Below are positions 17,795 through 34,254 of a stretch of DNA of 64,000 nucleotides, in pieces. The notes under the pieces were generated by a model. That model did no database searches, had not been told where the DNA came from, and saw nothing but the letters and a program-made list of their open reading frames with translations. The stretch's first letter is position 1. The number at the start of each line of letters is the position of its first letter. The DNA is from Halieaceae bacterium (GTDB lineage: Bacteria > Pseudomonadota > Gammaproteobacteria > Pseudomonadales > Halieaceae). The DNA lies in contig JADGEN010000007.1 in NCBI GenBank assembly GCA_016744355.1, positions 1 through 64,000 of the forward strand, written 5' to 3'. A program made the position numbers and the translations under genes.

Positions 17795-18367
17795 ATGGCG
17801 ACATATTCAACCAATGATCTTCGATCTGGCTTAAAGGTTATGCTTGATGGTGACCCCTGTAGCATTTTGGCAAACGAATTGGTCAAGCCGGGTAAAGGTC
17901 AGGCGTTTGCCCGGGTAAAGCTGCGCAACCTCAGGTCGGGGCGGGTCTGGGAGCGCACTTTCAAGTCGGGAGAATCTCTGGAGGCAGCTGACGTAATGGA
18001 GCAGGATCTGGAATATTCCTATACCGACGGGGAGTTCTGGTACTTTATGGACCCCGATAGCTATGAGCAGTATCCTGCCGATGCCAAGGCCGTGGGCGAT
18101 ACCCATCTATGGCTTAAGGAACAAGACCGCTGTGAGGTCACTTTGTATAACGGTGCACCTTTGTCCATCGCACCCCCTAATTTTGTCGAATTGGAAATTG
18201 TCGAGACCGACCCTGGCCTTAAGGGCGATACCGCAAATGGAGGTAGTAAGCCAGCTACGCTCGCTACTGGCGCTGTTGTCAGGGTTCCATTGTTTCTTAG
18301 CCAGGGAGAAATCATTCGCATTGACACCCGCACTGGCGATTATGTGAGTCGCGCCTCCAAGTCCTGA
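17795..18367 (+). CDS. efp: translation elongation factor P
   Basis: 190-residue EF-P, which binds stalled ribosomes between the P and E sites and helps form bonds in polyproline stretches. The three beta-barrel domains are intact. The modified lysine is K34 in the loop VKPGKGQAF, with GKG around it as in EpmA-modified proteins. The modifying enzyme gene epmA follows after 5 bases, so factor and modifier are made together. epmB, which supplies beta-lysine, is not in the window. The C-terminal signature GDYVSRA is present. Confidence 0.97.
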
Positions 18368-18372
18368 TTGCC

Positions 18373-19326
18373 ATGAGCTGGCAGCCCGGTGCTTCAGGGC
18401 AGATAATTGCGGAGCGCGCCGCACTGCTGGGGAAAATTCGTCAGTTTTTCCTCGTTCGCAGTGTACTGGAAGTGGATACACCTTTGCTGTGCAGCTCAGG
18501 TGTCACCGATCCCTCCATAGAACCACTGACGGTTGAGCAGGGTGCCTCTTTAAGCGCTGCTCGATATCTGCAATCCTCACCAGAATACGCGATGAAACGG
18601 CTGCTAGCCGCGGGATCGGGTTCAATTTATCAAATAGCCAAAGCGTTTCGCGATGGTGAGGTTGGCCCCCGTCACAACCCTGAATTTACTCTTCTGGAAT
18701 GGTACAGGCTTGGATATGATCACCACCAACTGATGGCAGAGGTGGCAGAACTTATCTGCTCCTGTCTCGGTGAGCGACAGGTGCAGAAGTTCAGTTATCG
18801 TGAGTTATTTGTGCACTTCCTCAAGTTGGACCCGTTTGCTGCCGGCATAGATCAATTGCGTGAAACAGCTAGAGCGCATGTCGATTTGAGCTTTGACTCC
18901 GATGATCGGGACTTGTGGTTGGATTTACTGATGAGCCACGTAGTAGAGCCTCGCTTGGCGGCTTATAGCCTATGCTTTGTATACGACTATCCCGCCTCGC
19001 AGGCGGCCTTGTCACGGGTGGTAGTGCGCAATGGTGTTGACGTTGGCCAACGCTTTGAACTGTATGTGGATGGTATAGAGATAGGCAACGGTTATTGCGA
19101 GCTTACGGATGTGCAGGAGCAGGCCAGGCGTTTTTCTGCTGATAATGAAAAGCGAGAACAGTTGGGACTTACCGAAAAGCCTGTTGATACCAGGTTGCTG
19201 GCTGCGATGCAGTGCGGGCTGCCCCAGTGTAGTGGCGTTGCTATAGGTGTGGATAGACTACTGATGTGTCTTAGCGGCAGCACCGACATCAGGGGCGTAC
19301 TTGCCTTCGATTGGGAGCGATGCTAG
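18373..19326 (+). CDS. epmA: elongation factor P--(R)-beta-lysine ligase
   Basis: 317-residue class II lysyl-tRNA-synthetase-like enzyme (PoxA/GenX/YjeA) that attaches beta-lysine to EF-P instead of tRNA. The anticodon-binding domain is missing, as in the family. Motif 2 region: AFRDGEVGPRHNPEFTLLEW. Motif 3: GVAIGVDRLLMCL. The substrate loop IEIGNGYCEL is also present. The length is close to the E. coli enzyme (325). It follows efp in an operon, and its stop overlaps the convergent thioesterase by four bases. Confidence 0.96.
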   Translation: MSWQPGASGQIIAERAALLGKIRQFFLVRSVLEVDTPLLCSSGVTDPSIEPLTVEQGASLSAARYLQSSPEYAMKRLLAAGSGSIYQIAKAFRDGEVGPRHNPEFTLLEWYRLGYDHHQLMAEVAELICSCLGERQVQKFSYRELFVHFLKLDPFAAGIDQLRETARAHVDLSFDSDDRDLWLDLLMSHVVEPRLAAYSLCFVYDYPASQAALSRVVVRNGVDVGQRFELYVDGIEIGNGYCELTDVQEQARRFSADNEKREQLGLTEKPVDTRLLAAMQCGLPQCSGVAIGVDRLLMCLSGSTDIRGVLAFDWERC

Positions 19327-19787
19327 GGCTTCGTCGCTTCGCTGTTCAACACAACCGGGCCATAGCCACGTACAAACTCTTGAGGCATTCGGCGTGGCCG
19401 CCCAGTGCTCAGCTCTATGCAAACAAACTTCACGCTTCCGCGCAGCAGGGTTACGCCATCTTCAACCCTTACGATTTGGAAGTGGCGCTTCATGGATAGT
19501 TTTTTGTCCCAATCGATAATCCAGGTTGCAAGCAAGATTTCCTGCCCTTGATGTGAGGCGCATAAGTAAATGTATTCAGCATGGGTTATAGCCATGGCCC
19601 GGTCGAGCGCGCGATAGGCATCCAGATCCAAACCCAGAGAGACGGAATGTGCCCATGCCACTTGTTCACACCACTTGACGTACACGGTGTTATTGGTGTG
19701 GTTCAGGCCATCTATATCTTCGGGGTTCACCTTTGTCTGGATTGTAAAAGCCCCAGGGTGATCCAAGATAGATGCATCGATTGACAT
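19323..19787 (-). CDS. hotdog-fold acyl-CoA thioesterase (YbgC/FadM-like)
   Basis: 154-residue single hotdog domain. The N-terminal active-site region DIDGLNHTNNTVYVKWCEQ matches the 4-hydroxybenzoyl-CoA thioesterase type, with the usual Asp-x-x-Gly-(x)-His-x-Asn-Asn pattern carrying a one-residue variation. It should hydrolyse acyl-CoA or a similar thioester; the chain is unknown. The start codon overlaps the stop of the upstream nhaC gene (TAATG on the minus strand), so translation is probably coupled. A thioesterase joined to a sodium/proton antiporter has no obvious metabolic link. Confidence 0.88.
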   Translation of the reverse strand: MSIDASILDHPGAFTIQTKVNPEDIDGLNHTNNTVYVKWCEQVAWAHSVSLGLDLDAYRALDRAMAITHAEYIYLCASHQGQEILLATWIIDWDKKLSMKRHFQIVRVEDGVTLLRGSVKFVCIELSTGRPRRMPQEFVRGYGPVVLNSEATKP

Positions 19788-21259
19788 TAGCCCGCTACTG
19801 CCGTTTCGGGCTCAATTTCCAGTGGCTTTTGGGCGATATTGTAGAACCCATAAATGACCGCGATAATGGGACACAGGATGTTGAAAAAAGCGAAGGGGGC
19901 ATAGCTGAATGTTGCCACGCCGAGGGTGGCTGACATATACGCGCCGCAAGTATTCCAGGGAATTAATGCCGAAGTTATGGTGGCGGAGTCTTCCAGGGTG
20001 CGAGAAAGATTCAAGCGTGACAGGCCGCGCCGCGCGTATTCATCCTTGTACATCCGCCCGGGTAGGGCCACCGCAATAAATTGATCTGCCGCTAGTATAT
20101 TGGTGCTGATACAGGTTGCCACGGTTGTGAGTATTAACGACCCGGTGCTGGTAACGCCCTTGAGTGCTAGTTTGAGAAGGTAGGTGAGTATTCCCGTCTT
20201 TTCCAATACGCCGCCAAACCCCAGTGCCACCATAATTAACCACACCGTGTTCAGCATACTACTCATACCGCCCTTGCTCAGCAGCGCATCGAGAAATTCG
20301 TTGCCGCTGTTGGAGGTGTAACCGTCAAACAGGCTGATCCAGACGCCCTGCAGCATGATAAATGGCTTGCCCAGCCCGCTGGTATTTCCGGCGAGTTTTG
20401 CTACTGTGTCGGGTTGAAATATCACAGCAAGGATAGCGCCAGTTAAAGCGCTGACAACAATGGCAGGGTATGCGGGAAATTTTTTGTAGACCAACCCGAG
20501 CATTAATAGCAGCGGAAGAAGCAGGTGAATACCAATATTGAATTCGGATTGTAGGCTGACTTTCAGGGCTTCAATTTCCGTTGGAGTGGCGCCCCCTGAA
20601 CCCCCTATAACCAGGAAAATAATGAGCGCTATGGTAAAACTTGGAACCGTAGTCCAAAGCATGTGGCGAATGTGGTCAAATAAATCGACGTCGGCGGAAG
20701 CCGATGCCAGGTTGGTGGTGTCTGACATGGGTGAGAGCTTATCGCCAAAATAAGCGCCCGAAATTATAGCTCCTGCGGTGATGGCTGGTGATAAATCGAA
20801 ACTTCCCGCGATGCCCATCAAGCCGATGCCGAGTGTTCCCGCCACTGTCCAGGAGCTGCCTATGCTGATGGCGACAATGGCGCAAATCATGGCACTGGCG
20901 GCGTAAAAGACACTGGGGTTGAGAATCTGTACCCCGTAGTAAATCATTGCCGGCACAGTTCCAGAGAGAATCCATGTGCCAATTAACATACCCACCGAGA
21001 GCAAAATCAGGGTTGGACCAAGACCAATGGCAATGCCGCTGATTATGCCTTCCTGTGCTTTTTTCCAGGGAACTCCTACTTTCCGACCAACCAGGGCGGC
21101 AACGCAGGTGGCCATGACCAGCGCGATTTGGTTTGCGCCATAGGACGAATCGGAACCAAACAGATATACCGAGCAAGCCAATAAGGAAATGAGAAACACG
21201 ATCGGTGTCAGGGCCAGAGCGAGCGTTAACTCCTGCTTTTTGCTAGTAGTGGGGCTCAA
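19787..21259 (-). CDS. nhaC: Na+/H+ antiporter, NhaC family
   Basis: 490-residue inner-membrane antiporter with about 11-12 hydrophobic helices. Family patterns include ISGAYFGDKLSPMSDTTNLA, SIGSSWTVAGTLGIGLMG and LIPWNTCGAYMSATLGV. It would expel sodium in exchange for protons, fitting a marine or brackish life. NhaC relatives such as MleN exchange malate/lactate as well, so the substrate pair is not certain. The start appears to be TTG 21259. It diverges from the sugar dehydrogenase gene across about 220 bases that hold no further gene; that gap shows only AT-rich promoter-like sequence (TTATAATTATAG near 21280) and a 6-bp inverted repeat. Confidence 0.92.
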   Translation of the reverse strand: MSPTTSKKQELTLALALTPIVFLISLLACSVYLFGSDSSYGANQIALVMATCVAALVGRKVGVPWKKAQEGIISGIAIGLGPTLILLSVGMLIGTWILSGTVPAMIYYGVQILNPSVFYAASAMICAIVAISIGSSWTVAGTLGIGLMGIAGSFDLSPAITAGAIISGAYFGDKLSPMSDTTNLASASADVDLFDHIRHMLWTTVPSFTIALIIFLVIGGSGGATPTEIEALKVSLQSEFNIGIHLLLPLLLMLGLVYKKFPAYPAIVVSALTGAILAVIFQPDTVAKLAGNTSGLGKPFIMLQGVWISLFDGYTSNSGNEFLDALLSKGGMSSMLNTVWLIMVALGFGGVLEKTGILTYLLKLALKGVTSTGSLILTTVATCISTNILAADQFIAVALPGRMYKDEYARRGLSRLNLSRTLEDSATITSALIPWNTCGAYMSATLGVATFSYAPFAFFNILCPIIAVIYGFYNIAQKPLEIEPETAVAG

Positions 21260-21481
21260 GGCGCAGTTACTCTCACAGTTTTATAATTATAGTGTAAACC
21301 CACATCGGGATATGAGCTGGTGGCTATTGTCACCAGAATCTAGAATGCCTTAAAAGTCACTGCCGGTACAGCACGGGGGTGCCAGAAATTGTGCCTGAGT
21401 ATATAGGCGCTACCGTTTGCATGGCGTAATATATCGACTACTTTTTTGGCTTTAGTCTTAAAGAATACGGGTTATCAAAAA

Positions 21482-22639
21482 ATGCGGTTGGGTAAAAATT
21501 TACGGGGGTGGTTCATTCCCGTGGCCTGCTTCTTTCTCTCGGCATGCTTAAATCAGGCTTCGAATACGGCAACAGTAGCAGTACGCGAAACCGGCGGGGA
21601 AAGCGGGAGTGTGGCGTCCGTCATCTGGGTAAATACACTGGTAAACGGGCTGCACCAACCCTGGGGCATGGATTTTTTACCCGACGGAAACATTCTGGTT
21701 ACCGAGAAAACCGGGGCATTGAAGCGCATCACTGCACAGCACTACACAGTGCAGGACATAGAGGGGCTGCCGGGTATAGCAGATGAGGGGCAGGGCGGCT
21801 TGATGGACATTCTGGTGCACCCGAATTTCACCGATAATGGCCTGCTCTACCTGAGCTATACGGTCGAGGAAGACCAGCTCTACACTACTCAGGTTATGAG
21901 GGCCAAGCTGGCGAATAACCGCTTGGTAGACAAGCAGGTTTTGTTTACCGCACAGCCCTTTTTTAAAGAGCGCCGACATTTTGGCTCCAGGTTACTTCTG
22001 GATGAGGGTTATTTGTATATTACGGTGGGTGACAGGGGTAACCGAGATCTGGCTCAAAACCTGCACACTCATAATGGGAAAGTAATCCGCCTGAGGGAAA
22101 ACGGGAAAGTACCGGCAGATAACCCTTTTGCAGATAAGAAGGGTGCCCAAGCTGAAATTTGGACCTACGGCCATCGCAATCCTCAGGGTATTGCCCGCAA
22201 TCCACTCACTGGCGCTATCTGGGTGTCGGAGCATGGGCCTCAGGGAGGAGATGAAATCAATGAGCTTCACCGCGGTGCCAATTATGGCTGGCCGCTGGTC
22301 ACATACGGAGAGGAGTACGGCGGAGGGAAAATTGGTATGGGAACGACTCTCGCTGGCACTGTACAGCCGTTGACCTATTATGTGCCCTCCATTGGTACCG
22401 GTGGCATGGATTTCTATATAGGTGATAAGTACCCATCCTGGCAGAATTCACTTCTGGTCTCAGCCCTGCGTAGTTCCCAGATTAATCGAGTGATGTTGGC
22501 GGGCGATGGCATTGATCAGCAAACGAGATTGCGGATGAACATGCGGGTGAGAGATTTACAGGTGGGGCCTGATGGTTTCATCTACGCATTAGCAGATGAC
22601 TCGCGTTTAGTGCGTCTTGAAACCAGAACGCAGGGTTAG
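21482..22639 (+). CDS. PQQ-dependent aldose sugar dehydrogenase-like lipoprotein
   Basis: 385-residue six-bladed beta-propeller of the soluble glucose dehydrogenase / YliI (Asd) family, which oxidises aldose sugars with pyrroloquinoline quinone. Propeller motifs visible: LHQPWGMDFLPDGNILVTEK, then GHRNPQGIARNP, EHGPQGGDEINEL and NYGWPLVTYGEEY. The N-terminus is a lipoprotein signal (FIPVACFFLSAC, lipobox LSAC), so it is anchored to a membrane in the periplasm. The ATG at 21482 places the signal correctly; a TTG 12 codons earlier is possible. No PQQ synthesis gene is in the window. The gene ends 4 bases before the FAN1-like gene. Confidence 0.9.
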   Translation: MRLGKNLRGWFIPVACFFLSACLNQASNTATVAVRETGGESGSVASVIWVNTLVNGLHQPWGMDFLPDGNILVTEKTGALKRITAQHYTVQDIEGLPGIADEGQGGLMDILVHPNFTDNGLLYLSYTVEEDQLYTTQVMRAKLANNRLVDKQVLFTAQPFFKERRHFGSRLLLDEGYLYITVGDRGNRDLAQNLHTHNGKVIRLRENGKVPADNPFADKKGAQAEIWTYGHRNPQGIARNPLTGAIWVSEHGPQGGDEINELHRGANYGWPLVTYGEEYGGGKIGMGTTLAGTVQPLTYYVPSIGTGGMDFYIGDKYPSWQNSLLVSALRSSQINRVMLAGDGIDQQTRLRMNMRVRDLQVGPDGFIYALADDSRLVRLETRTQG

Positions 22640-22643
22640 GCGG

Positions 22644-24335
22644 GTGGAGCGGGCTAGCTCGGTTGAGACGCCCCCGCAGTTGCACGAGCACTACTACCTG
22701 CACAATTTCTTATCACTGTGCGCCAGCGTTGAGAGGCAATATGAGGATTTCCTCGATGAGCAAGAGCGCGACTTTCTCGAGCGCTTTTATGCAGTAGATC
22801 ATGCCGCTCAATGCCTTTATGTCCGTTTGATATCTCGTGTAGGTCCGTGGTTTCGTCTGCGCAAATTAAACTACCCGGAGATTGGTGAGCTGGTCAAGCC
22901 CATGGAGGTGCTTGTAGATGCGGGGCTTGTGATCGAATCCAGTGGTTTGTGCGTGGAGGCATTGGGCCGCCTGTTTACGCGGCAAGAGTTACGCCAGGCA
23001 TACGGTGCATTACTGGAGACTCCCCTGCCGACAAACAAGGCCGGTTTGATTGACTCGATCGAACAGCTATCTATGGATGAGGCGCAGCATCTGCAGCATG
23101 TGACCGAAGTAATAGGCGATGAGTTGAGGGCTCCTGTTTGTGTGGAGCAGGTTGAGTTACTACAGTTGCTTTTCTTTGGTAATCGACACCAGAGTTTGAC
23201 GGACTTTGTGCTCAGTGACCTGGGTCTGGCGCGTCATTACCCCTATCCATTAAACCCGGAAAACAGGCTGTTTCCCTGTAGAGAGGCATTGCAGGAATAT
23301 CTAAGCTGCTGCGAACTGCAGGATGCTTTCTGGCAGTTTTTCGAGCTAGACGATGAGGAGGGCATAGTGGGTGTTGCGACGCTGATGCTTGAAGTCGAAA
23401 TCTGTTTCGCAGTAAGCCAGTATCGCTGGCAGCGTGCATGGAATGCTGTAGCAAGAGAGTTGGAGCGTCGCGGCGAACAGGAGCTGGCCCTGGCGCTGTA
23501 TAAACGCAGCGAAAGACATCCGGCGAGAGAGCGGCGCGCGCGCATATTGGAGGGTCTTGAAAATTGGACCGGCGTTGTTTCTCTGTGCGAGGATATTCTG
23601 GCCGCCCCCTGGTGTGAAGCCGAGCATGAAGCAGCTATGAAAATAGTGGCCAGGGCCAGACGAAAACTTGGTGGGGGGCCAGTGCGTAGAGTGCCTGACA
23701 CCTTTGTGGAATTCACTATAACGCTGCCCCGTTCGGGTGAGGGTGTAGAGCGCGATGCGCAATTGCATTTTCAGGGGCAGTGGCACACAGCGCACTATGT
23801 GGAAAATAGCCTGATGAATACGCTGTTTGGATTGGCGTTCTGGGAGCAGATATTCGCCGATGTCCCCGGTGCTTTCCACAACGCCTATCAGGGTGTTCCG
23901 CAGGATATGTATGAGCCTGAATTTGTCACCCGTAGGGCAGAAGCAATAACACATAGATTGGATGAGCTGCGCAGTGGTAGTTTGCACGATGCTTTATTGG
24001 CAGCCTATAAACGTTATGCAGGCTACCAGTGCCACTGGACTGATTGGCGCGTGGTCGATGAAAAACTGCTCTCTACAGCGCTGAAAATTATTCCCGCAGA
24101 GGATTTGTTTGCGATCTGGGAGCGACTGCTGTTTGATCCTGCGGAAAACCGCAGTGGGTTTCCAGACCTTATTGCCTTTGGCGAGCGGCCGGGCAATTAC
24201 AGCATGATTGAGGTAAAGGGGCCGGGTGACGCGCTGCAGAATAACCAGAAGCGCTGGCTGCGGTATTTCTCGGAGCATGATATTCCCGCCACCGTCGTCT
24301 GGGTGGAGTGGAGTGAGGAATCAGACGGTGGCTGA
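22644..24335 (+). CDS. FAN1-like structure-specific nuclease (VRR-NUC domain)
   Basis: 563-residue nuclease resembling the bacterial homologue of human FAN1, which cuts 5' flaps and helps unhook DNA interstrand cross-links. The C-terminal VRR-NUC domain holds the PD-(D/E)xK triad: GFPDLIAF (D508), then MIEVKGPGD (E523, K525), then NNQKRW. The middle has the helical TPR-like part (ALYKRSERHPARERRARILEGLENW), and the N-terminus should be the SAP-type DNA-binding region. GTG 22644 with AGGG eight bases before it is preferred; a TTG at 22617 overlapping the previous gene is possible. The 3' end overlaps the helicase gene by 8 bases, so the two are coupled. Confidence 0.9.
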   Translation: MERASSVETPPQLHEHYYLHNFLSLCASVERQYEDFLDEQERDFLERFYAVDHAAQCLYVRLISRVGPWFRLRKLNYPEIGELVKPMEVLVDAGLVIESSGLCVEALGRLFTRQELRQAYGALLETPLPTNKAGLIDSIEQLSMDEAQHLQHVTEVIGDELRAPVCVEQVELLQLLFFGNRHQSLTDFVLSDLGLARHYPYPLNPENRLFPCREALQEYLSCCELQDAFWQFFELDDEEGIVGVATLMLEVEICFAVSQYRWQRAWNAVARELERRGEQELALALYKRSERHPARERRARILEGLENWTGVVSLCEDILAAPWCEAEHEAAMKIVARARRKLGGGPVRRVPDTFVEFTITLPRSGEGVERDAQLHFQGQWHTAHYVENSLMNTLFGLAFWEQIFADVPGAFHNAYQGVPQDMYEPEFVTRRAEAITHRLDELRSGSLHDALLAAYKRYAGYQCHWTDWRVVDEKLLSTALKIIPAEDLFAIWERLLFDPAENRSGFPDLIAFGERPGNYSMIEVKGPGDALQNNQKRWLRYFSEHDIPATVVWVEWSEESDGG

Positions 24336-26652
24336 CTTCACCGTGAGCGTGCGTGATCTGGCGGAATTTTGCTATCGCAGCGGCGATATCGATCACCGCT
24401 TTACGCCATCACCCACTGGTGTGCAGGGCACCGAGGGCCACCAGCGTGTGTTTAGCAAGCGTCCCAACTCTTATACCAGAGAGTATGCAGTGGACTATAA
24501 ATACCGCGATGGAAAATTCGAACTAGACCTTCGTGGGAGGGCTGATGGCTACGACTCCGTCGCGGGGGTGGTTGAGGAAATAAAAACCTGTCGAGTCAGC
24601 CCGGAATTGATTCCCGAATCTACCAAGCAGGTACATTTGGCGCAGGCCAGATTGTATGCGGCATTAGTCGCCGAGGCGGACGACCTTGAAAAACTGGATG
24701 TACATCTCACCTGGTTTAACATTGACTCAGAAAAGGAATGGACTTCCTCCTATACGTACTCTGCCGATGAAATGGCCGAGTTTCTCAAGCAAACCCTGAA
24801 GAAATACTCGAACTGGTTGAAGAAAATTTTAGCGCTGAAAGTATCGCGCGACAAAAGTATTGCAGCAATGGCGTTTCCTTACGGCGACTTCAGGGCAGGG
24901 CAGCGGGACATCGCAGAGTTGGTGTACAAATGTGTCGATCAGGGCGGCCAACTATTACTAGAGGCACCAACCGGAATTGGGAAAACATCGGCTGTTCTGT
25001 TTCCTGCGTTGAAAGCCCTGGCTGCAGGCAAACACGAGCGCTTGTTATATCTCACTGCAAAGTCGGTAGGCCGTCGTGCTGCGGAACATACGTTGGCGCA
25101 TTTTCGAGAGTCGGGATTTAACGGCGTTGCGCTCAGCCTGACCGCAAAAGACAAAATCTGCCTTTCGCCCGGCAAGGCTTGTCACAAAGACGATTGTCCC
25201 TACGCACTGGGTTATTACGACAAATTAGCGGATGCGATGGAGGCGGCGATTAGCGGGCCCTCGCTAACGAAACAGGATGTTGAACATCTCGCTAATCGGT
25301 TTGAGATCTGCCCCTATCAACTGATGCTCGATTTGTTGCCATGGGTCGATATTGTCATTGCAGATCTACACTATTTTTACAGCTTAACGCCTACATTTTC
25401 ACAGCTTATTGAGGGGGGGGATCAGCGTTGGACGGCTTTGGTCGATGAGGCTCACAACTTACCCTCTCGCGCCAGAGCGATGTATAGCGCTAATTTGTCC
25501 AAGTCCGGGCTGATGAGGGCAAAATCTCAACTTGGGAAAAAAGGAAGTAGGCCCGTGGTGCGTGCCCTGGAGAATATTAACCGCCAGATGCTCGCGCTGC
25601 AGAAGGAAGACTGGCAAGAGCCCGTGTTTGAATCTCGAGATGACCTCTCGGATGCCCTGCTAGATGTCCTGCAGCGCTTTGTAGCGGAGGTTGGGGAGAA
25701 AATGGCCGAGAATCCGGCATATCTACATCGTATGCCGGACCTGAAAGAGTTCTTCTTCGATGTGTTGCAGTTTATGCGCGTCGCTGAAAATTGGGGGGAA
25801 GACTATCGCTTTGAGATGACAAGGCTCGCCTCGACCGGGAGCGCTGTTCACAGTAAACAGAGTTTGCGCCTCAGGCTCAACTGCCTAGATCCGGCTCGCT
25901 TGCTGATGTCACGGCAGGAACAGTTACATGCCCTGAATGTATTTTCCGCCACACTGTCTCCGATTCAGTGGGTTCACGCCGGCCTCGGGCTGAGGGAGGA
26001 CGCAGTCTGCCGGCGCCTGAATTCGCCGTTTAGGAGTGAGCAGCTTAAGGTGTCCCTCGCCACTCAGATTGATACGAGATACAAATTGAGATCTGTTTCC
26101 CTGCCCGCGCTGGCTAAACTATTAGCGCAATGGATTTTTCAAGAAAGCGGAAATTGCATCGTTTATTTCCCCTCCTACCGCTATATGCGGGATTGTGTAT
26201 CACTGATGCTGGCTAATGGTCTTGAGCAAAGGGGGCATACCCTTTGGCAACAAAGCTCGGAACAGGGGGAGTCCGCCAGGGAAGAATTGTTGGAATTACT
26301 GGAGAATACACGCAATGTTTTGGCGTTTTGTATGCTCGGAGGGGTGTTTGGCGAAGGTATTGACCTCCCTGGAGAGCGCCTGAGCGCAGTGGTTGTAGTC
26401 GGTGTCGGCCTGCCGCAGATCAACAAAGATACGCAGCAACTGCAAGCTTACTTTGAAGCCCTCCATGGGCAGGGCTTTCGCTACGCCTGTTTATATCCGG
26501 GAATGCAGAAGGTTGATCAGGCGTTGGGGCGGGTTATTCGGCGGGACGCTGACCGAGGCCGGGCTCTGTTGGTGGACTCCCGTTACACACAGCGCGAATA
26601 CCGGGATTTGCTCCCCCCCTGGTGGACCTACGGGGCTTACCCGGACAGTTAA
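24328..26652 (+). CDS. XPD/Rad3-type DNA helicase with N-terminal RecB-like nuclease domain
   Basis: 775-residue fusion. Residues 1-150 look like a PD-(D/E)xK exonuclease of the RecB/Cas4 type: TEGHQ (H37), LRGRADGYD (D73), VVEEIKTC (E84, K86) and HLAQARLYA. From about 185 it is a superfamily 2 helicase: Walker A EAPTGIGKT (213-220), DEAH box LVDEAHNL (373-376), an Fe-S cysteine set C278, C285, C290, C328 as in XPD and DinG, and C-terminal motifs VFGEGIDLPGE and QALGRVIRR. It likely unwinds and trims DNA during repair. GTG 24328 has AGGAA seven bases before it and overlaps the FAN1-like gene. A run of eight G lies in frame at 25413-25420. Confidence 0.92.
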   Translation: MADFTVSVRDLAEFCYRSGDIDHRFTPSPTGVQGTEGHQRVFSKRPNSYTREYAVDYKYRDGKFELDLRGRADGYDSVAGVVEEIKTCRVSPELIPESTKQVHLAQARLYAALVAEADDLEKLDVHLTWFNIDSEKEWTSSYTYSADEMAEFLKQTLKKYSNWLKKILALKVSRDKSIAAMAFPYGDFRAGQRDIAELVYKCVDQGGQLLLEAPTGIGKTSAVLFPALKALAAGKHERLLYLTAKSVGRRAAEHTLAHFRESGFNGVALSLTAKDKICLSPGKACHKDDCPYALGYYDKLADAMEAAISGPSLTKQDVEHLANRFEICPYQLMLDLLPWVDIVIADLHYFYSLTPTFSQLIEGGDQRWTALVDEAHNLPSRARAMYSANLSKSGLMRAKSQLGKKGSRPVVRALENINRQMLALQKEDWQEPVFESRDDLSDALLDVLQRFVAEVGEKMAENPAYLHRMPDLKEFFFDVLQFMRVAENWGEDYRFEMTRLASTGSAVHSKQSLRLRLNCLDPARLLMSRQEQLHALNVFSATLSPIQWVHAGLGLREDAVCRRLNSPFRSEQLKVSLATQIDTRYKLRSVSLPALAKLLAQWIFQESGNCIVYFPSYRYMRDCVSLMLANGLEQRGHTLWQQSSEQGESAREELLELLENTRNVLAFCMLGGVFGEGIDLPGERLSAVVVVGVGLPQINKDTQQLQAYFEALHGQGFRYACLYPGMQKVDQALGRVIRRDADRGRALLVDSRYTQREYRDLLPPWWTYGAYPDS

Positions 26653-26856
26653 CTTTTGGCGTTGGTCAAATTATTTAGCATGCAGGCCCCTGATTTTCAG
26701 GGTTGAAGCCCCAGAATTGGCCTATTTGTACCCCTTTGAAGTATCGTGGAACCGATTCAGCATCTGAATACTCGCCATAATGCCGGCGACCCTATAGCTG
26801 TGCTACAGTTGCCGGCTGTTAAAAACATCGAATTATTAATGGGGTAAGACATCGTT

Positions 26857-27999
26857 ATGCGCATTGCAATTCCCAAGGAGACACATCCGGGAGAAAACCG
26901 GGTGCCAATTACGCCTGATGCAGCAAAAAAGCTGTGTCGGATGGGTGCAGAGCTCGTTATAGAGGCTGGCATGGGACTGGGGTCGGGCTTTACTGACGCC
27001 GAGTACACGGATGTTGGGGCGGCAGTATCGAATGACCGCAACGCCCTGTTTTCCGAGGCAGACGTGCTGCTGCGCTTGCGCAAGCCGGAACTGGCCGAAG
27101 TAGCCATGATGAAGTCCGGCTGCATTCACATCAGCTATCTGGACCCTTTCAATGAACACGAGTTGGTGGAGGCTCTGCGTAAGCAGGGCGTGACTTCTAT
27201 CAGTATGGAAATGATTCCCCGCACCACCCGCAGCCAGAAAATGGATGCTCTGAGTTCCCAGGCCAACCTGGCGGGTTATGTCATGGTGATGTTGGCAGCG
27301 GCGAAATTACCCCGAATTTTCCCCATGATGATGACCCCCGCAGGTACGCTTAAGCCCGCTAAGGTGTTCATTATTGGAGCGGGTGTGGCGGGCTTGCAAG
27401 CCATTGCTACCGCCAAACGTTTGGGTGCCAAGGTAACCGCGTTTGATACGCGTCCCGTGGTGGCGGAGCAAGTGAGATCTCTGGGTGCAACTTTTCTTGA
27501 TATCGATTTGGGCGACACGGGTGAAACCTCCGGTGGTTATGCCAAGGAGCTAACCCCGGAACAGATACAGATACAGCGGGATGCACAGAAAGATGCTATT
27601 GCTGAGTCGGATGTACTTATTACTACGGCCCAGGTATTTGGCCGCAAACCCCCGGTAATTGTTACGCGGGACGTGGTCGAGGGCATGGCCCCTGGTTCTG
27701 TCGTAGTGGATATGGCCGCAGAAACAGGCGGTAATGTAGAGGGGTCTGTTCCCAACGAGACTGTTGATATAAATGGCGTGACAGTTATTGGTCAGGGCAA
27801 CTTGTCCAACGAAGTGTGTCGTGACGCCAGCCAAATGTACTCCAGTAATCTTTTTAACCTGGTTGAAGACAGCTGGGATAAAGAGACAAACGTTTTCAAT
27901 ATCGATTTCGAACACGACATTCTTCCCGGTTGCATCATCACCCATGGTGGCGAAGTGACCAATGAGACAATTAAGAAAATACAGGCGGGAGAAAGCTGA
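26857..27999 (+). CDS. pntAA: proton-translocating NAD(P) transhydrogenase, alpha subunit part 1
   Basis: 380-residue soluble NAD(H)-binding domain I of the transhydrogenase. It begins MRIAIPKETHPGENRVPITP as in the alanine dehydrogenase/PNT family. The NAD motif is VFIIGAGVAGLQAIATAKRLGA, and the QDAQKDAI-like mobile loop follows. Together with pntAB and pntB it moves hydride between NADH and NADP+ while protons flow inward, giving NADPH for biosynthesis. The alpha subunit is split over two genes, as in Rhodospirillum and Pseudomonas, not fused as in E. coli. Its TGA overlaps the next ATG by one base. The 204 bases upstream hold no gene; they include a weak CCCTG/CAGGG hairpin (26688-26702) and two GCCGGC copies (26782, 26811). 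Confidence 0.96.
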   Translation: MRIAIPKETHPGENRVPITPDAAKKLCRMGAELVIEAGMGLGSGFTDAEYTDVGAAVSNDRNALFSEADVLLRLRKPELAEVAMMKSGCIHISYLDPFNEHELVEALRKQGVTSISMEMIPRTTRSQKMDALSSQANLAGYVMVMLAAAKLPRIFPMMMTPAGTLKPAKVFIIGAGVAGLQAIATAKRLGAKVTAFDTRPVVAEQVRSLGATFLDIDLGDTGETSGGYAKELTPEQIQIQRDAQKDAIAESDVLITTAQVFGRKPPVIVTRDVVEGMAPGSVVVDMAAETGGNVEGSVPNETVDINGVTVIGQGNLSNEVCRDASQMYSSNLFNLVEDSWDKETNVFNIDFEHDILPGCIITHGGEVTNETIKKIQAGES

Positions 28000-28286
28000 T
28001 GGAAATTGTATTTCTGACTTTTATTTTAATGCTGTCCATATTTTTGGGCTTCGAGTTAATCACCAAGGTGCCCGCAACACTGCATACCCCCTTGATGTCT
28101 GGCGCCAATGCGATTTCAGGCATTACAGTTGTGGGTGCTATTAGTCTGGCGGGAACGGGCCAGCAGGACTTGGCCAACTGGCTGGGTGCCGCTGCGGTAG
28201 CCCTGGCAACGATTAATGTAGTGGGTGGTTATATGGTGACTGACCGTATGTTGGCCATGTTCAAGAAGAAAGGGAGTGGCCAATAA
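27999..28286 (+). CDS. pntAB: NAD(P) transhydrogenase, alpha subunit part 2 (membrane)
   Basis: 95-residue membrane subunit with three hydrophobic helices (FLTFILMLSIFLGFELI, then SGANAISGITVVGAISLAG, then LGAAAVALATINVVGGYMV). It forms part of the proton channel domain II with PntB. The start overlaps the stop of pntAA (TGATG) and its stop overlaps the start of pntB (TAATG), so the three subunits are made by coupled translation. Confidence 0.96.
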   Translation: MEIVFLTFILMLSIFLGFELITKVPATLHTPLMSGANAISGITVVGAISLAGTGQQDLANWLGAAAVALATINVVGGYMVTDRMLAMFKKKGSGQ

Positions 28287-29659
28287 TGGAATTTACATCG
28301 GGTATGGAAATGGTAATCCAGTTTTCTTATATCGTGGCAGCAGGACTGTTTATATACGGTTTGAAGTTGCTGGGATCGGCTGGCTCTGCAAGGCGCGGCA
28401 ATATGTTGTCTGCGTCTGGAATGTTGCTCGCAATGGTGGTGGCGCTTCTCGATCAGGGCATTGTTGAATATCAGTGGATACTGCTGGGCTTTGTCGTTGG
28501 TGGCATCATTGGTGGCACCGCTGCGCGTATGGTGCAAATGACGTCGATGCCAGAGATGGTAGCGCTGTTTAATGGCTTTGGCGGTATGGCCAGCTTGCTG
28601 GTTGGTTGGGCTGCGCTGGCTACCGCTACAGAGACATTTACTCTGGTCACCATCGTGTTGTCCATTCTTATCGGTGGCCTGACGTTCACCGGCTCGCTGA
28701 TTGCTTATGGCAAGTTGAGCGAGAAAATTGGCAGCGGCGCGGTGATGTTCAAAGGCCAGCAGGTGGTTAACAGCCTGATTGTGTTGGGCATTGTAGCCAG
28801 TGCCGTCATGTTTTGTATCGAGCCCGGTAATGCCCAGTGGTTATATCTGGTTATTGGTCTGTCGCTGTTGTTTGGCGTAATGGCAGTAATCCCTATCGGC
28901 GGAGCCGATATGCCGGTTGTTATTTCATTGCTCAACTCCTACTCCGGACTGGCGGCTTGTGCTGCGGGCTTCGCAGTAAATAACAATATTCTGATCGTGG
29001 CGGGCTCACTGGTGGGCGCATCGGGCATTATTCTTACGCAAATTATGTGTAAGGCAATGAACCGCTCCTTGAGTAATGTTTTGTTCAGCGGTTTTGGAAG
29101 TGTGAGCTCGGATACTACTGAGGTAGAAGGTGAAATCAAGCCCATCTCAGCTGAGGACGCTTACTATGTTCTGGAAGCGGCGAGCAATGTGGCGATTATT
29201 CCAGGCTACGGTATGGCTGTGGCCCAGGCCCAGCACGTGGTGAAAGAGCTGTGCGAGCTATTGGAAAGAAATGGCGCCGAAGTCAATTTTGGTATTCACC
29301 CGGTGGCGGGGCGTATGCCCGGGCACATGAACGTTTTGCTGGCAGAGGCGGATGTGCCCTATGACCAGCTGCTTGAAATGGATGACATTAATCCGCGTAT
29401 GGAAAACGTTGATGTTGCGATCGTTATTGGCGCCAACGACGTGGTGAACCCTGCGGCTAGAGAAGTAGAGTCTTCACCCATCTACGGTATGCCGGTGATT
29501 AATGTTGACCATGCCCGCACCGTGTTTGTGCTCAAGCGCTCCATGGCCTCAGGTTTTGCCGGTATCGAAAACCCTCTGTTCTACAAAGAAAATACGCGTA
29601 TGCTGTTTGGGGATGCCAAGGAATCAATTTCTGGCCTGGTGCGCGAGTTTAGTAGCTAG
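28286..29659 (+). CDS. pntB: NAD(P) transhydrogenase, beta subunit
   Basis: 457-residue subunit. The first two thirds hold about nine membrane helices of the proton channel. The last 180 residues are the NADP(H)-binding domain III with IIPGYGMAVAQAQHVVKEL, FGIHPVAGRMPGHMNVLLAEA and VIGANDVVNPAA. It closes the pnt operon and is followed 35 bases later by a strong intrinsic terminator. Confidence 0.97.
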   Translation: MEFTSGMEMVIQFSYIVAAGLFIYGLKLLGSAGSARRGNMLSASGMLLAMVVALLDQGIVEYQWILLGFVVGGIIGGTAARMVQMTSMPEMVALFNGFGGMASLLVGWAALATATETFTLVTIVLSILIGGLTFTGSLIAYGKLSEKIGSGAVMFKGQQVVNSLIVLGIVASAVMFCIEPGNAQWLYLVIGLSLLFGVMAVIPIGGADMPVVISLLNSYSGLAACAAGFAVNNNILIVAGSLVGASGIILTQIMCKAMNRSLSNVLFSGFGSVSSDTTEVEGEIKPISAEDAYYVLEAASNVAIIPGYGMAVAQAQHVVKELCELLERNGAEVNFGIHPVAGRMPGHMNVLLAEADVPYDQLLEMDDINPRMENVDVAIVIGANDVVNPAAREVESSPIYGMPVINVDHARTVFVLKRSMASGFAGIENPLFYKENTRMLFGDAKESISGLVREFSS

Positions 29660-29693
29660 CAAGCCTAAGGGGCAGTTTAATGTTTCGCACTAT

Positions 29694-29718
29694 ACACCGG
29701 CATCTCGCCGGTGTTTTT
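29694..29718 (+). terminator. intrinsic terminator of the pnt operon
   Basis: ACACCGGC and GCCGGTGT form a perfect 8-bp stem around a 5-base loop and run into five T (29714-29718). Confidence 0.85.
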
Positions 29719-29808
29719 GTATTCAATGAGCAGGATCAATATAGTAATGCGTGAGACAGGTTAGCTTAACACCCTGTTTTGGAAGGAATATTGACTGGAG
29801 GGAGCCTA

Positions 29809-30801
29809 ATGGTTGCCAGTAAGACAGCTAAAAAAAGCGCGTCCAAGCGCAACAAGCCTGCACCCGGGAAACCAGCCGTGAAAGCCAAGGTTAAGGCCAA
29901 AGCCAAGCCCAAAGCAAAAGTGACTGCCGAACAACCCATCATGGCGGCTCTACGTGCTGAGCATAAACAAATTGCCAGTGTTATGGCTATCTTCGCACAA
30001 CAACTCGAAGCTGTTGATTCCGGAGAGCTGGTAGACACCCATGTTATGTATGAAACCATGGACTACATGGTCTTCTGGCCTGATCGCTATCATCACCCCC
30101 GCGAAGACCTGGTTTACAACCGAGTCGCAGAAATTGACGAAAACGCTGCAGATAACGTCGACAGCCTGCAACGGGAGCATGACAAAATGGCTCTGCGCGG
30201 CCGCCGTTTACTGGCGGATATCGTGCGTTGGCGTGAGGGTGAAATAACAGGAGATTCAGTCGTTAAGGACGGCCGCGCTTATATCGAAAATATGTACGTA
30301 CACATGAACACTGAAGAGAAGCTTGTGTTCCCTCAAATTGAAGGCGTTCTAACGCTTGATGACTGGCGCGAATTAGCGGCTGAAGATCAACTGACGCCCG
30401 CTGCCGACCCCGTATTTGGCGGGAGGGTAGATCGGGAGTTTCGAAATTTGTCGCGAAAATTGCGGCGCAATCTCAGGCACAGCGTTGAAAAGGGTGCAAT
30501 GGTTGAGTGGATCGGTATTGAGGCGCTGTTGGAGTCGATGGAAGTTATGTCGATTGCCCTGGAGACTGCCAAGGATGCTACTGGCGACCATTTGCACTCG
30601 GTCTGGAAAGACTCCACCGGAATTTTACGCGAAGCGCCGCTGACTGGAATGTTCAAGTGCGCATCGAATAACACCCGCTTGACCGTTGACTGGCTGGGTA
30701 ATGTTATCGGAATATCAAAAGATACTTTAAGCGACTTGTCCCGTGTAAATCAGGAGCGACGAGATCGTGTTCGTTTGCTCAATCAGGCCTCTGAGCGTTA
30801 G
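29809..30801 (+). CDS. hemerythrin-like protein with lysine/alanine-rich N-terminal tail
   Basis: 330-residue protein in three parts. Residues 1-40 are a basic low-complexity tail (about KPAVKAKVKAKAKPKAK), like histone-H1-type or nucleic-acid-binding tails. Residues 45-180 are a hemerythrin/HHE domain whose likely iron ligands are H52, H95/H96, E99, H124, H165 and E169/E170 (AEHKQ, RYHHPRED, REHDKM, HMNTEEK). Residues 205-330 are an unrecognised helical region. HHE domains bind a di-iron centre and sense or store O2 or NO, or repair iron clusters. The ATG at 29809 follows GGAGGGAG closely. An in-frame TTG ten codons earlier lacks such a site. The gene ends one base before the convergent ABC exporter. 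Confidence 0.82.
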   Translation: MVASKTAKKSASKRNKPAPGKPAVKAKVKAKAKPKAKVTAEQPIMAALRAEHKQIASVMAIFAQQLEAVDSGELVDTHVMYETMDYMVFWPDRYHHPREDLVYNRVAEIDENAADNVDSLQREHDKMALRGRRLLADIVRWREGEITGDSVVKDGRAYIENMYVHMNTEEKLVFPQIEGVLTLDDWRELAAEDQLTPAADPVFGGRVDREFRNLSRKLRRNLRHSVEKGAMVEWIGIEALLESMEVMSIALETAKDATGDHLHSVWKDSTGILREAPLTGMFKCASNNTRLTVDWLGNVIGISKDTLSDLSRVNQERRDRVRLLNQASER

Positions 30802-30802
30802 A

Positions 30803-32566
30803 TCAATCGCCAGGACCTGAGTCTCTAAACTGTAATTTTGCGAGGCGGGCGTAAAGCTCGCAGCTTTGCAGAAGTTGTTCATGGGTGCCGCTTGCCACGA
30901 TTTGGCCGTGATCCATAACGGCAATTTTGTCAGCGTGCAAAATAGTGGAAAGCCGATGCGCAATAATCACCGTGGTGCGCTTGTGCATCAATTCTTGCAG
31001 CGCTTCCTGTACTAACTGTTCACTCTGGGTATCCAGCGCACTGGTTGCTTCATCCAGCAGCAAAATTCTGGGATCGTTGAGTATGGCGCGAGCTAGCGCA
31101 ATTCGCTGTCTTTGTCCGCCGGACAAACGCACACCTTGTTCCCCTAGGTGGCTGGCATAGCCGCTGGGTAACTGTGTAATAAACTCGTGGGCGTGGGCCG
31201 CTTTTGCCGCAGCGAAAACCTCTTGCTCGGAAGCGGTTGCCTTGCCGTAGGCAATGTTGTACTTCACATCAGCAGTGAAGAGAGCGGGCTGCTGTGGGAC
31301 CAGAGCCATTTGCTCTCGTAGCTGTTTCAGTGGCATTTCACGAATATTAATATCATCAAGTACGATCTCCCCCTGTTGGGGGTCGTAAAAACGCAGTAGC
31401 AGCTCAAACACGGTAGATTTTCCCGCGCCTGAAGGTCCCACCAGTGCCAGACTTTTACCGCGTTCTATATGAAGTGAAAAATTCTTGAGTGCCGCAAATT
31501 CAGGTCGTGTGGGATAGGAAAAAGTGACATCGTTAAAAGCTACGTCGGGCTGTTTTCTATCGTTTGCAAGTTTGGATCGCCCGCTGTCATCGATGAGGCT
31601 TTTGGTATTTAACAGGTCCAGTAATCGCTCCGCTGCACCCGCGGCCCGCTGTAATTCGCCCCAGACTTCGGCGATGGTTGCTACGCCGCTGCCTACCATA
31701 AGGGCATAAAAGACAAATGCCCCTAACTCTCCACCCGTCATGGCGCCGGAGAGTACGCTGCGTCCGCCGGACCACAGCATGCCCGACATACTGGCAAACA
31801 ACATAAAAATGGCCGCGCCTATGAGCAGTGAGCGGGTGAAAATCCGTTTTCTGGCAATACTGAAGGCACGTTCGACTTCACGGGAAAATGCGGAGGACTC
31901 GTAGGGCTCGCGAGTGTAGCTCTGTACCACTTTGATATTTTGTATTATTTCTCCAGCATAGGTTCCAACGCTGGCAATACTGCTCTGGCTCTGGTTGGAC
32001 AACTTCCGCACACGCCGCCCGAACACAAGAATTGGCAGTAAAACCAGAGGGATGCCCACTGTGATAATCAGACTCAGTTTCAGGTTTGTGATAAACATCA
32101 TTACCAGTGCCCCGCTTAAAGTGAGGCTGCTGCGAAGTGCCATACTGAGAGAGGAGCCAATAATGGTTTGTAGCAAGGTGGTGTCAGTGGTGAGTCGAGA
32201 CATAATCTCACCGCTGCGGTTTGTTTCGAAATAGCCTGGATTCAAGCGCACAATATTGTCAAAAACGGCTAGTCGAATATCGCCGCTCACCCTCTCGCCC
32301 AGCCAGGAAACCAGATAGAAACGCAGAAAGGTACCGATGGCCATAGCGCCACCCAGGGTGAGTATTAAGGTGATTGCGTAGCGCAGGTCATCGACGCTGC
32401 CCCCACCAAACCCCTGGTCGATTAACACCTGCACACCCTTGCCCATGGACAGAGTGGCCGCGGCGGTGAATAGCAATGCTATGCTCGCCAACAGGAGGCG
32501 CAGCTTATAGGGTTTGAGAAACCCCATGATTTGCCACAGGATTGTTAATCCGCTGCTGGATTTCAA
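30803..32566 (-). CDS. ABC exporter (fused membrane and ATPase domains, MsbA-like)
   Basis: 587-residue half-transporter that works as a homodimer. Six membrane helices lie in 20-300, followed by an ATPase domain with Walker A GPSGAGKST (377-385), signature LSGGQ (481-485), Walker B ILLLDEATS (D505, E506) and the H-loop IIAHRLST. It could export a lipid, peptide or drug; MsbA proper is usually beside lpxK, which is absent here. The TTG start overlaps the TGA of the upstream MscS gene, so it is probably coupled to it. It is the last gene of the long minus-strand block. Confidence 0.93.
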   Translation of the reverse strand: MKSSSGLTILWQIMGFLKPYKLRLLLASIALLFTAAATLSMGKGVQVLIDQGFGGGSVDDLRYAITLILTLGGAMAIGTFLRFYLVSWLGERVSGDIRLAVFDNIVRLNPGYFETNRSGEIMSRLTTDTTLLQTIIGSSLSMALRSSLTLSGALVMMFITNLKLSLIITVGIPLVLLPILVFGRRVRKLSNQSQSSIASVGTYAGEIIQNIKVVQSYTREPYESSAFSREVERAFSIARKRIFTRSLLIGAAIFMLFASMSGMLWSGGRSVLSGAMTGGELGAFVFYALMVGSGVATIAEVWGELQRAAGAAERLLDLLNTKSLIDDSGRSKLANDRKQPDVAFNDVTFSYPTRPEFAALKNFSLHIERGKSLALVGPSGAGKSTVFELLLRFYDPQQGEIVLDDINIREMPLKQLREQMALVPQQPALFTADVKYNIAYGKATASEQEVFAAAKAAHAHEFITQLPSGYASHLGEQGVRLSGGQRQRIALARAILNDPRILLLDEATSALDTQSEQLVQEALQELMHKRTTVIIAHRLSTILHADKIAVMDHGQIVASGTHEQLLQSCELYARLAKLQFRDSGPGD

Positions 32567-34254
32567 ACTGCCTGGCCACTGCCTACAAATGTTTTTTCAT
32601 CATCAGTAAACTGCCTGAGTTGGAGCGTTTTACTGGGGCCACTAAAGCCAGCTCCCGAGTCTTGCACGATAGAGACAATGCCTAAATTTAACTCTTCTGC
32701 GGTCTGCAAAAATTTCTGATAATCGGTAGTCGCAACACCGGCATCTATGCGCAGTATTGCCGTGGCATCGTCAATACGCGATAGGCGAATGCTGATAGTG
32801 TCGTCCATAACCTCTGAATGGCTGGAGAATAGCTCGCGTGTATTTTCCAGCGTCGTGGTTAATTGGGTGGGACTGGAGATAGCCAATCTGATTTCGTGAA
32901 AAAAGCGTATGCGATCGCGCACAGAGAAGTTTTCTATTTCTACCGCAGAAAATACTGAGTTGGGTATGACAACCAGGGTGCGATTGAGTGTGCGTATTGT
33001 TGTAGAGCGCAGACCGATTTCCTCTACCGTGCCCACAACAGTACCAAAGCGGCAAAAATCACCGGGATTTACCGGTCTTGCGGTGTAGAGTGTGACTGCA
33101 CCAATGACGTTCTCAAGGGTTTTTTGTGCTGCCAGAGCGACCGCCAGACTGCCCACACCTAAGCCAGCCAGTATGGTGGACATGTTGTAGCCCGCCGAAT
33201 CTGCCCACACAAGGGCGATGATGGTAATCAGCACAGTCTTGATAATGATTGTCATCGGCTTTAGCAGGGCCGCGAGTTGAGGCTTTCCTGCGTATTGCAT
33301 TTTGCGAATCTGGTAGTCGCGAATCAGCGAGATCGCACCCATAAACAATACGGTATACGCAATGTAATCTACACCGCTGGACTCCATTAACACCCTGGCG
33401 GTCAGAGATAGGCCGAGCTCATTGACCATCATCCTGGCCAACAGGAGAAACAGGAAGAATCGCATGGGGACTTTGAAAAAATGTTGGATCCCAAGGGGGA
33501 AGCGATTGGGTATTAGCAATGCGATGCGCATTAACAACGAGCTTAGTATTGCGGCTATAGGCCAGGCCAACAGGAAAAAAAGCACCGTGGCAATGACTTG
33601 CCAGTTGTCCATACCCATAAATCGGAAGTCGGGCAACAAGCTTTTGAAATAGATGGCGATAGGGCTGTAACCCAGCTCGTCCCACATCTCGGGAATCTTG
33701 GCCACGGTCGCATTTGAAAGCTTCCAAACCTTGCCGCCTTTGCCATCGGGGACGCGCTGCAGAAATATAGGCACTTCACCCGTGCTAATTTGTACAAGAC
33801 CGATCTGGTCACGATAACTGGGCAGCCCGTCGTTGAGGTTCCCCTCGGGGTCATCGCTTAGCGAGTGGACGTCGAAGATATTTTGTTGGCTCCACACGTA
33901 ACCCAGTGCCTGAATGAGTTGCTCGGGGGTGAATTCGTCCAGTTCTTCAGGCAAGTAACGCATATCCAGGAATTTGCCGGCTTTGGCGTAGTCCTGTTTA
34001 TTCATGGCTGAGCTGAGGCCTAATATACTGGAAAGCGGTGTTTTCTGTGCATCAATAGACTTGGGGTCAGACTGTTCTTTCTCCTCTACCAGACGTTCTA
34101 CTTGCTCCTCGGTTTCAAGGATTTCACGCATGGAAGCATCAGTTTTTGCAGCTTCCTGTGACCAACTGCTGGAGGCGAATAAGAGGAGAAACAATCCCAG
34201 AAAGGCCATGATTGAAGGAGTTGATCGTTTAGATTGCGCTGCGCTAAGTGTCAT
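32563..34254 (-). CDS. mechanosensitive ion channel, MscS family, with periplasmic N-terminal domain
   Basis: 563-residue channel. It starts with a signal peptide (MAFLGLFLLLFASSSWSQ) and a roughly 180-residue soluble region likely in the periplasm. About five membrane helices follow. The pore helix and beta domain are typical of MscS: LAGLGVGSLAVALAAQKTLE, then NPGDFCRFG, GTVEEIGLRSTTIRT and VVIPNSVFS. It opens under membrane tension to release solutes in osmotic downshock. The extra N-terminal domain makes it larger than E. coli MscS (286) but smaller than MscK. It lies 28 bases after tatC on the same strand and overlaps the ABC exporter gene. Confidence 0.92.
   Translation of the reverse strand: MTLSAAQSKRSTPSIMAFLGLFLLLFASSSWSQEAAKTDASMREILETEEQVERLVEEKEQSDPKSIDAQKTPLSSILGLSSAMNKQDYAKAGKFLDMRYLPEELDEFTPEQLIQALGYVWSQQNIFDVHSLSDDPEGNLNDGLPSYRDQIGLVQISTGEVPIFLQRVPDGKGGKVWKLSNATVAKIPEMWDELGYSPIAIYFKSLLPDFRFMGMDNWQVIATVLFFLLAWPIAAILSSLLMRIALLIPNRFPLGIQHFFKVPMRFFLFLLLARMMVNELGLSLTARVLMESSGVDYIAYTVLFMGAISLIRDYQIRKMQYAGKPQLAALLKPMTIIIKTVLITIIALVWADSAGYNMSTILAGLGVGSLAVALAAQKTLENVIGAVTLYTARPVNPGDFCRFGTVVGTVEEIGLRSTTIRTLNRTLVVIPNSVFSAVEIENFSVRDRIRFFHEIRLAISSPTQLTTTLENTRELFSSHSEVMDDTISIRLSRIDDATAILRIDAGVATTDYQKFLQTAEELNLGIVSIVQDSGAGFSGPSKTLQLRQFTDDEKTFVGSGQAV

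Follow-up and report, generated by a model that had tools for sequence, protein, structure and literature searches.

Why would a bacterium encode a FAN1-family nuclease and an iron-sulfur (Fe-S) helicase with a nuclease domain of its own in two overlapping genes? The question is raised by a 64,000-nucleotide stretch of contig JADGEN010000007.1 from a Halieaceae bacterium (the window, positions 1 to 64,000), in which the two genes lie on the forward strand, to which all window coordinates below refer. Neither protein family is new; the finding is the linkage of FAN1 with the helicase, which belongs to the EndoDinG subgroup of DinG-like helicases. In the sources examined, bacterial FAN1 is a cross-link enzyme without a described partner, and EndoDinG is a protein of known fold and unassigned role. 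Their conserved operon, which often carries a LexA-type box, provides both proteins with a testable function.

Identity of the two overlapping genes

The upstream gene (22644..24335; GTG start at 22644, stop at 24333-24335) encodes a protein of 563 amino acids, and an in-frame TTG lies upstream of its start at 22617. The protein scores 83.8 bits against FAN1_HTH (PF21315, E 1.5e-24; 22692..22931) and 80.3 bits against VRR_NUC, the PD-(D/E)xK nuclease domain (PF08774, E 2.3e-23; 23976..24311), both above the curated Pfam cut-offs of 27 and 23.8, and it matches PaFAN1 (PDB 4r89) over nearly its full length (residues 8-557, phmmer E 9.5e-77). Its catalytic residues D508, E523 and K525 (codons 24165, 24210 and 24216; 24165..24218) are invariant in all 13 aligned FAN1 sequences. 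PaFAN1 uses D507, E522 and K524, according to the available part of its description (PMC9635880). With the same HTH and VRR-NUC domains and the same D-E-K active site as PaFAN1 (PDB 4r89 and 5y7g), the window protein is, as judged from sequence, a PaFAN1-type enzyme. FAN1 enzymes are described, in the part of that article available, as cutting 5' flaps a few bases past the junction and as having 5'-3' exonuclease activity; there PaFAN1 is discussed on its own as an enzyme of cross-link repair, and a helicase partner goes unmentioned (PMC9635880). One FAN1 of the relatives (L038, G009), 760 residues long, carries an insertion of ~190 residues at ~252-443, the first half of which is Ser/Thr-rich and repetitive.

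The downstream gene (24328..26652; GTG start at 24328, stop ending at 26652) encodes 774 amino acids. Its start overlaps the FAN1 stop by 8 bases (24328..24335) and is preceded by GAGGA at 24315..24319, a likely ribosome-binding site; this start is supported because the same -8 overlap, with ATG, occurs in all seven closest named loci (L052-L057 and L121). The N-terminal part (24328..24867) forms a predicted PD-(D/E)xK nuclease domain with H38 (codon 24439), E52 (24481), D73 (24544), E84 (24577) and K86 (24583), which, together with Q106 and Y110, are invariant in 19/19 relatives. The first five stay invariant in a wider set of 27 sequences, Listeria and Enterococcus included. No Pfam family matches this domain; in a profile search of the PDB it retrieves 9kqh (4e-38) and 4ic1 (E 0.0024), the latter a Cas4. 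The remainder contains a Walker A motif APTGIGKT (24964..24987), four Fe-S cysteines C278, C285, C290 and C328 (25159..25311) and a DEAH box (Walker B, 25444..25455), the cysteines and the DEAH box being invariant in the 19 relatives, and it scores above the Pfam cut-offs for Helicase_C_2 and DEAD_2.

Structural comparison points to the same relationship. The helicase matches 9kqh_A, a Finegoldia magna DinG, over its full length (phmmer E 1.2e-112), and an AlphaFold2 model built from the 19 relatives (predicted local distance difference test, pLDDT, 87.4) superposes best on 9kqh in Foldseek (query TM-score, TMq, 0.83), with XPD and DinG next. In VIA-align the model aligns with 9kqh at Z 34.3 (root mean square deviation 4.1 over 731 residues), a top Z just 1.4 above the next row; among the rows listed, 9kqh alone spans residues 1-768 and the others begin at residue 166 or later. 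The EndoDinG subgroup, as named in the accessible part of a 2025 review, is defined by an N-terminal PD-(D/E)xK domain in which H, E, D, E and K are conserved and by a CCCC Fe-S motif (PMC11981726). Because its nuclease residues and Fe-S cysteines match these features, the window helicase, which also shares the overall fold of 9kqh, is assigned to EndoDinG, the DinG-like subgroup with a nuclease fusion, with predicted endonuclease and 5'-3' helicase activities. In the review text available, the EndoDinG representative comes from Bdellovibrio and its endonuclease activity is cited as unpublished data; unlike our locus, FAN1 and VRR appear nowhere in that text (PMC11981726). In one relative (L047, G402) the nuclease and helicase regions of EndoDinG lie in different frames, either a sequencing error or a real break.

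The preliminary description of this DNA had thus correctly recognized a FAN1-like nuclease with an intact PD-(D/E)xK site, its 8-base overlap with an Fe-S helicase bearing its own nuclease domain, and hence two distinct nuclease domains and one helicase from overlapping genes. Its likening of the helicase to XPD and FANCJ stands for the XPD-type fold but not for FANCJ, the EndoDinG subgroup taking the place of the latter.

Conservation of the linkage

Among 38 relatives, 19 genomes encode the long helicase, and FAN1 adjoins it in every one; three more genomes carry FAN1 without a long helicase. Within the window's family, both genes are found in 18 of 25 genomes, neither in 7 and one alone in none, the seven genomes without the pair being 99% (three) or 66-88% (four) complete. 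A sample of 369 genomes of the class, in which FAN1 was counted above the cut-off (G247 falls below it and was left out), has both genes in 13 genomes, the helicase alone in 1, FAN1 alone in 6 and neither in 349 (Fisher p 1.2e-18, without correction for phylogeny). The 13 genomes with both show adjacency spacing in 11 (G402 was included after allowing for its match beginning at profile position 115), a separation of ~1.1 kb in 1 and a location on another contig in 1.

We also examined 80 named genomes selected by their helicase, a set biased to close relatives since the best 80 of 578 were kept. In 60 of them FAN1 immediately precedes the helicase in the same orientation, with a start-stop overlap in 56/60, mostly of 4 bases and of 8 in the seven closest. 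The other 20 have FAN1 elsewhere (5, one at a contig end) or lack it (15). Far from being rare neighbours, as a failure of the preliminary description would have had it, the two genes adjoin in all 19 long-helicase relatives and in most named loci.

No description of a FAN1-DinG operon was found in the literature searched, of which coverage was partial, most subscription journals lying outside. Cirz in 2006 is said to have placed PA1044 and PA1045 (named dinG) among the SOS genes of the P. aeruginosa LexA regulon; these two may be the FAN1-EndoDinG operon. Given this hypothetical SOS gene beside dinG and the partial coverage, the operon may have been published before under different names, without the link to FAN1.

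LexA-type boxes and a stand-in nuclease

Of the 60 adjacent named loci, 42 carry a strict LexA-type box (CTG-N10-CAG with at least 11/16 consensus matches) in the 260 bases ahead of FAN1. Windows of that length placed at random in these loci contain one in 20/20,000, and outside the FAN1 upstream regions only three strict sites occur in all these loci. The FAN1 of one boxed operon (L112) matches PaFAN1 with E 3.7e-204. We then scored further loci with a matrix derived from the strict sites (background 99.9% point 13.1). In four Pseudomonas genomes with the two genes apart (L060, L072, L093, L113 and L137-L140), the scores are 10.7-14.5 before the helicase and 15.0-16.6 before FAN1, the helicase site of L072 being weak because its 10.7 falls below the background point. 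Helicase loci without FAN1 score ~22 at the helicase in L058, L067 and L078, and in L107, L108 and L115 a site of 16.2 lies 833-860 bases before the helicase, near the start of an MmcB-like gene. No good LexA-type site was found in L095, L102 (with little upstream sequence), L104, L123, L124 and L131. LexA-type boxes, as predicted sites, thus precede the operon in other lineages. Taken together, the co-occurrence, overlap and box counts show that the linkage of FAN1 and this helicase is conserved beyond chance.

The 15 named genomes without FAN1 are informative in another way. In seven, all Burkholderiales, the gene beside EndoDinG encodes an unannotated PD-(D/E)xK-type protein (L124:4325-5191, L102:27-896, L115:5204-5986, L108:5192-5974, L107:5177-5998, L123:5184-5939 and L126:5049-5855), which lies upstream of the helicase on the same strand in six and on the opposite strand in L126. 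This stand-in carries an invariant PD...HE-x-K pattern (D157, E176 and K178). Of the other eight genomes, one has it elsewhere and one in broken pieces, and it occurs in 0/21 FAN1-bearing genomes searched; the split between stand-in and FAN1 (Fisher p 5e-5) is overstated by this value because kinship is confounded with it. Members scanned match no Pfam family (0/4, PF06319 included) and no NCBIfam family (0/3), and comparison with FAN1 revealed no relation. By profile, the stand-in resembles MmcB (PF06319; hhalign E 2.8e-5, probability 74). Since PF06319 gave 0/143 in the class, the MmcB sequences compared come from a sample of the phylum (15/80, 10 aligned). It differs from MmcB in its extra N-terminal residues as well as in these missing family matches, and its structure model is too poor for a structure search (pLDDT 54.9). 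The stand-in is therefore called MmcB-like only, and its nuclease activity is a prediction from its sequence. In the part of the source available, MmcB is described as a nuclease under SOS regulation that gives protection against mitomycin C and cisplatin (PMC9578287).

A proposed repair module and its surroundings

The LexA-type boxes of other lineages and the exchanged MmcB-like partner indicate a role in DNA-damage repair, probably of cross-links. Our favoured explanation, which we hold to be rather likely, is that FAN1 and EndoDinG constitute a two-gene DNA repair module for cross-links or fork blocks. It is favoured because FAN1 cuts flaps, because the helicase could open DNA, and because FANCJB and FAN1 act in one pathway in Arabidopsis, where, in the part of the report available, they are epistatic for mitomycin C (PMC6550410). 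The Arabidopsis pair likewise joins an Fe-S helicase to FAN1; being eukaryotic and not encoded in an operon, however, it offers an analogy and not membership. As a translocase, EndoDinG would open the duplex around the block and expose a strand; FAN1, a structure-specific flap nuclease, would cut next to the blocked junction; and the Cas4/EXO5-like nuclease domain of EndoDinG would trim or cut the freed strand. In this scheme interstrand cross-links, and fork blocks like them, would be unhooked by both proteins together; we infer the substrate, the sequence of events and the joint action. Bacillus subtilis has a two-gene module of helicase and nuclease for mitomycin repair, MrfAB, whose helicase and nuclease families differ from those described here. 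More tentatively, EndoDinG may be a common platform for cross-link repair with exchangeable dedicated nucleases, the partner being FAN1 in many Gamma- and Betaproteobacteria and the MmcB-like protein in some Burkholderiales; the two proteins would then correspond to the FAN1-FANCJ step of eukaryotes. If the repair module is real, it would be a simple bacterial model for an XPD-type helicase passing DNA to FAN1, with a bearing on human FAN1 and FANCJ.

Several observations weigh against such a module. In Listeria and Enterococcus (L132 and L133, annotated as ATP-dependent DNA helicase) EndoDinG occurs on its own, Cupriavidus and Nitrosospira have it without FAN1, and several families carry FAN1 without the helicase; since each occurs without the other, neither gene requires the other everywhere. 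The literature search found no phenotype or interaction data for the pair. The best LexA-like site within 300 bases before the window operon scores only 6.7; 15 of 16 loci of the family score at most 6.3 upstream of FAN1 (up to 1.5 kb searched, in one ~0.24 kb), and in seven close named loci no site within 260 bases exceeds 4.0, while lexA of the window's genome carries sites of 22.5 and 16.7 by the same profile. The operon of the window's family therefore seems free of LexA control. Across the 64 kb, the highest-scoring LexA-like site (13.1, at 21625) falls 1,019 bases before FAN1, within a dehydrogenase gene, and has no counterpart in relatives; we accordingly rejected it as a LexA box of the window operon.

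The occurrence of each gene without the other lends some weight to a less probable explanation, in which the genes share an operon for co-expression and serve separate lesions or pathways, FAN1 dealing with flaps or cross-links and EndoDinG with stalled forks, R-loops or breaks. SOS operons can indeed contain genes of different pathways. However, separate pathways would leave the fixed gene order, the overlap in 56/60 loci, the joint absence from 7/25 family genomes and the occupation of the same slot by another PD-(D/E)xK-type nuclease without a ready explanation. Shared descent without any functional link is the least probable account: the named loci are mostly Pseudomonas and Burkholderiales, so that their counts are not independent, yet the adjacency extends over many families, joint presence is sporadic, and boxes precede both genes in most genomes in which they lie apart.

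An anti-phage or anti-plasmid system that, like type IV CasDinG or DdmDE, destroys foreign DNA is also very improbable. The helicase matches the PADLOC typeIV_DinG model (E 2.3e-105) and, by Foldseek, distantly resembles CasDinG and DdmD, but what PADLOC matches is the shared helicase core, residues 175-765, and FAN1 has no PADLOC match. Direct repeats of 22 or more bases within 120 bases are absent from 18000-34000, the surroundings are housekeeping, and relatives carry LexA-type boxes, all of which speak against defence. The helicase was also considered as a type IV CRISPR DinG; this was rejected, as the five open reading frames scanned in 21446-29659 include no other cas family and repeats are likewise absent near the operon.

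The gene preceding the operon (21446..22639) encodes a pyrroloquinoline quinone (PQQ) glucose/sorbosone-type dehydrogenase (GSDH 403.7 bits) and ends 4 bases before the FAN1 GTG at 22644. The preliminary description had singled it out as an odd partner; the 4-base gap is there, but the partnership did not survive. The dehydrogenase is a lineage-specific neighbour, directly upstream of FAN1 in seven loci of the family (L022, the window, and L025, L026, L033, L052, L053 and L054, some possibly of the same species), separated from FAN1 in L028, L031 and L037, and not found in the remaining loci scanned. With direct adjacency confined to some loci of the family, it was rejected as a functional partner and probably lies outside the FAN1-EndoDinG module. 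In this family the module may be made constitutively, perhaps via transcriptional read-through of the upstream dehydrogenase gene. At 22353-22381, a weak sigma-70-like site (9/12 matches) is within chance expectation. Downstream of the operon lies a gene for an NAD(P) transhydrogenase.

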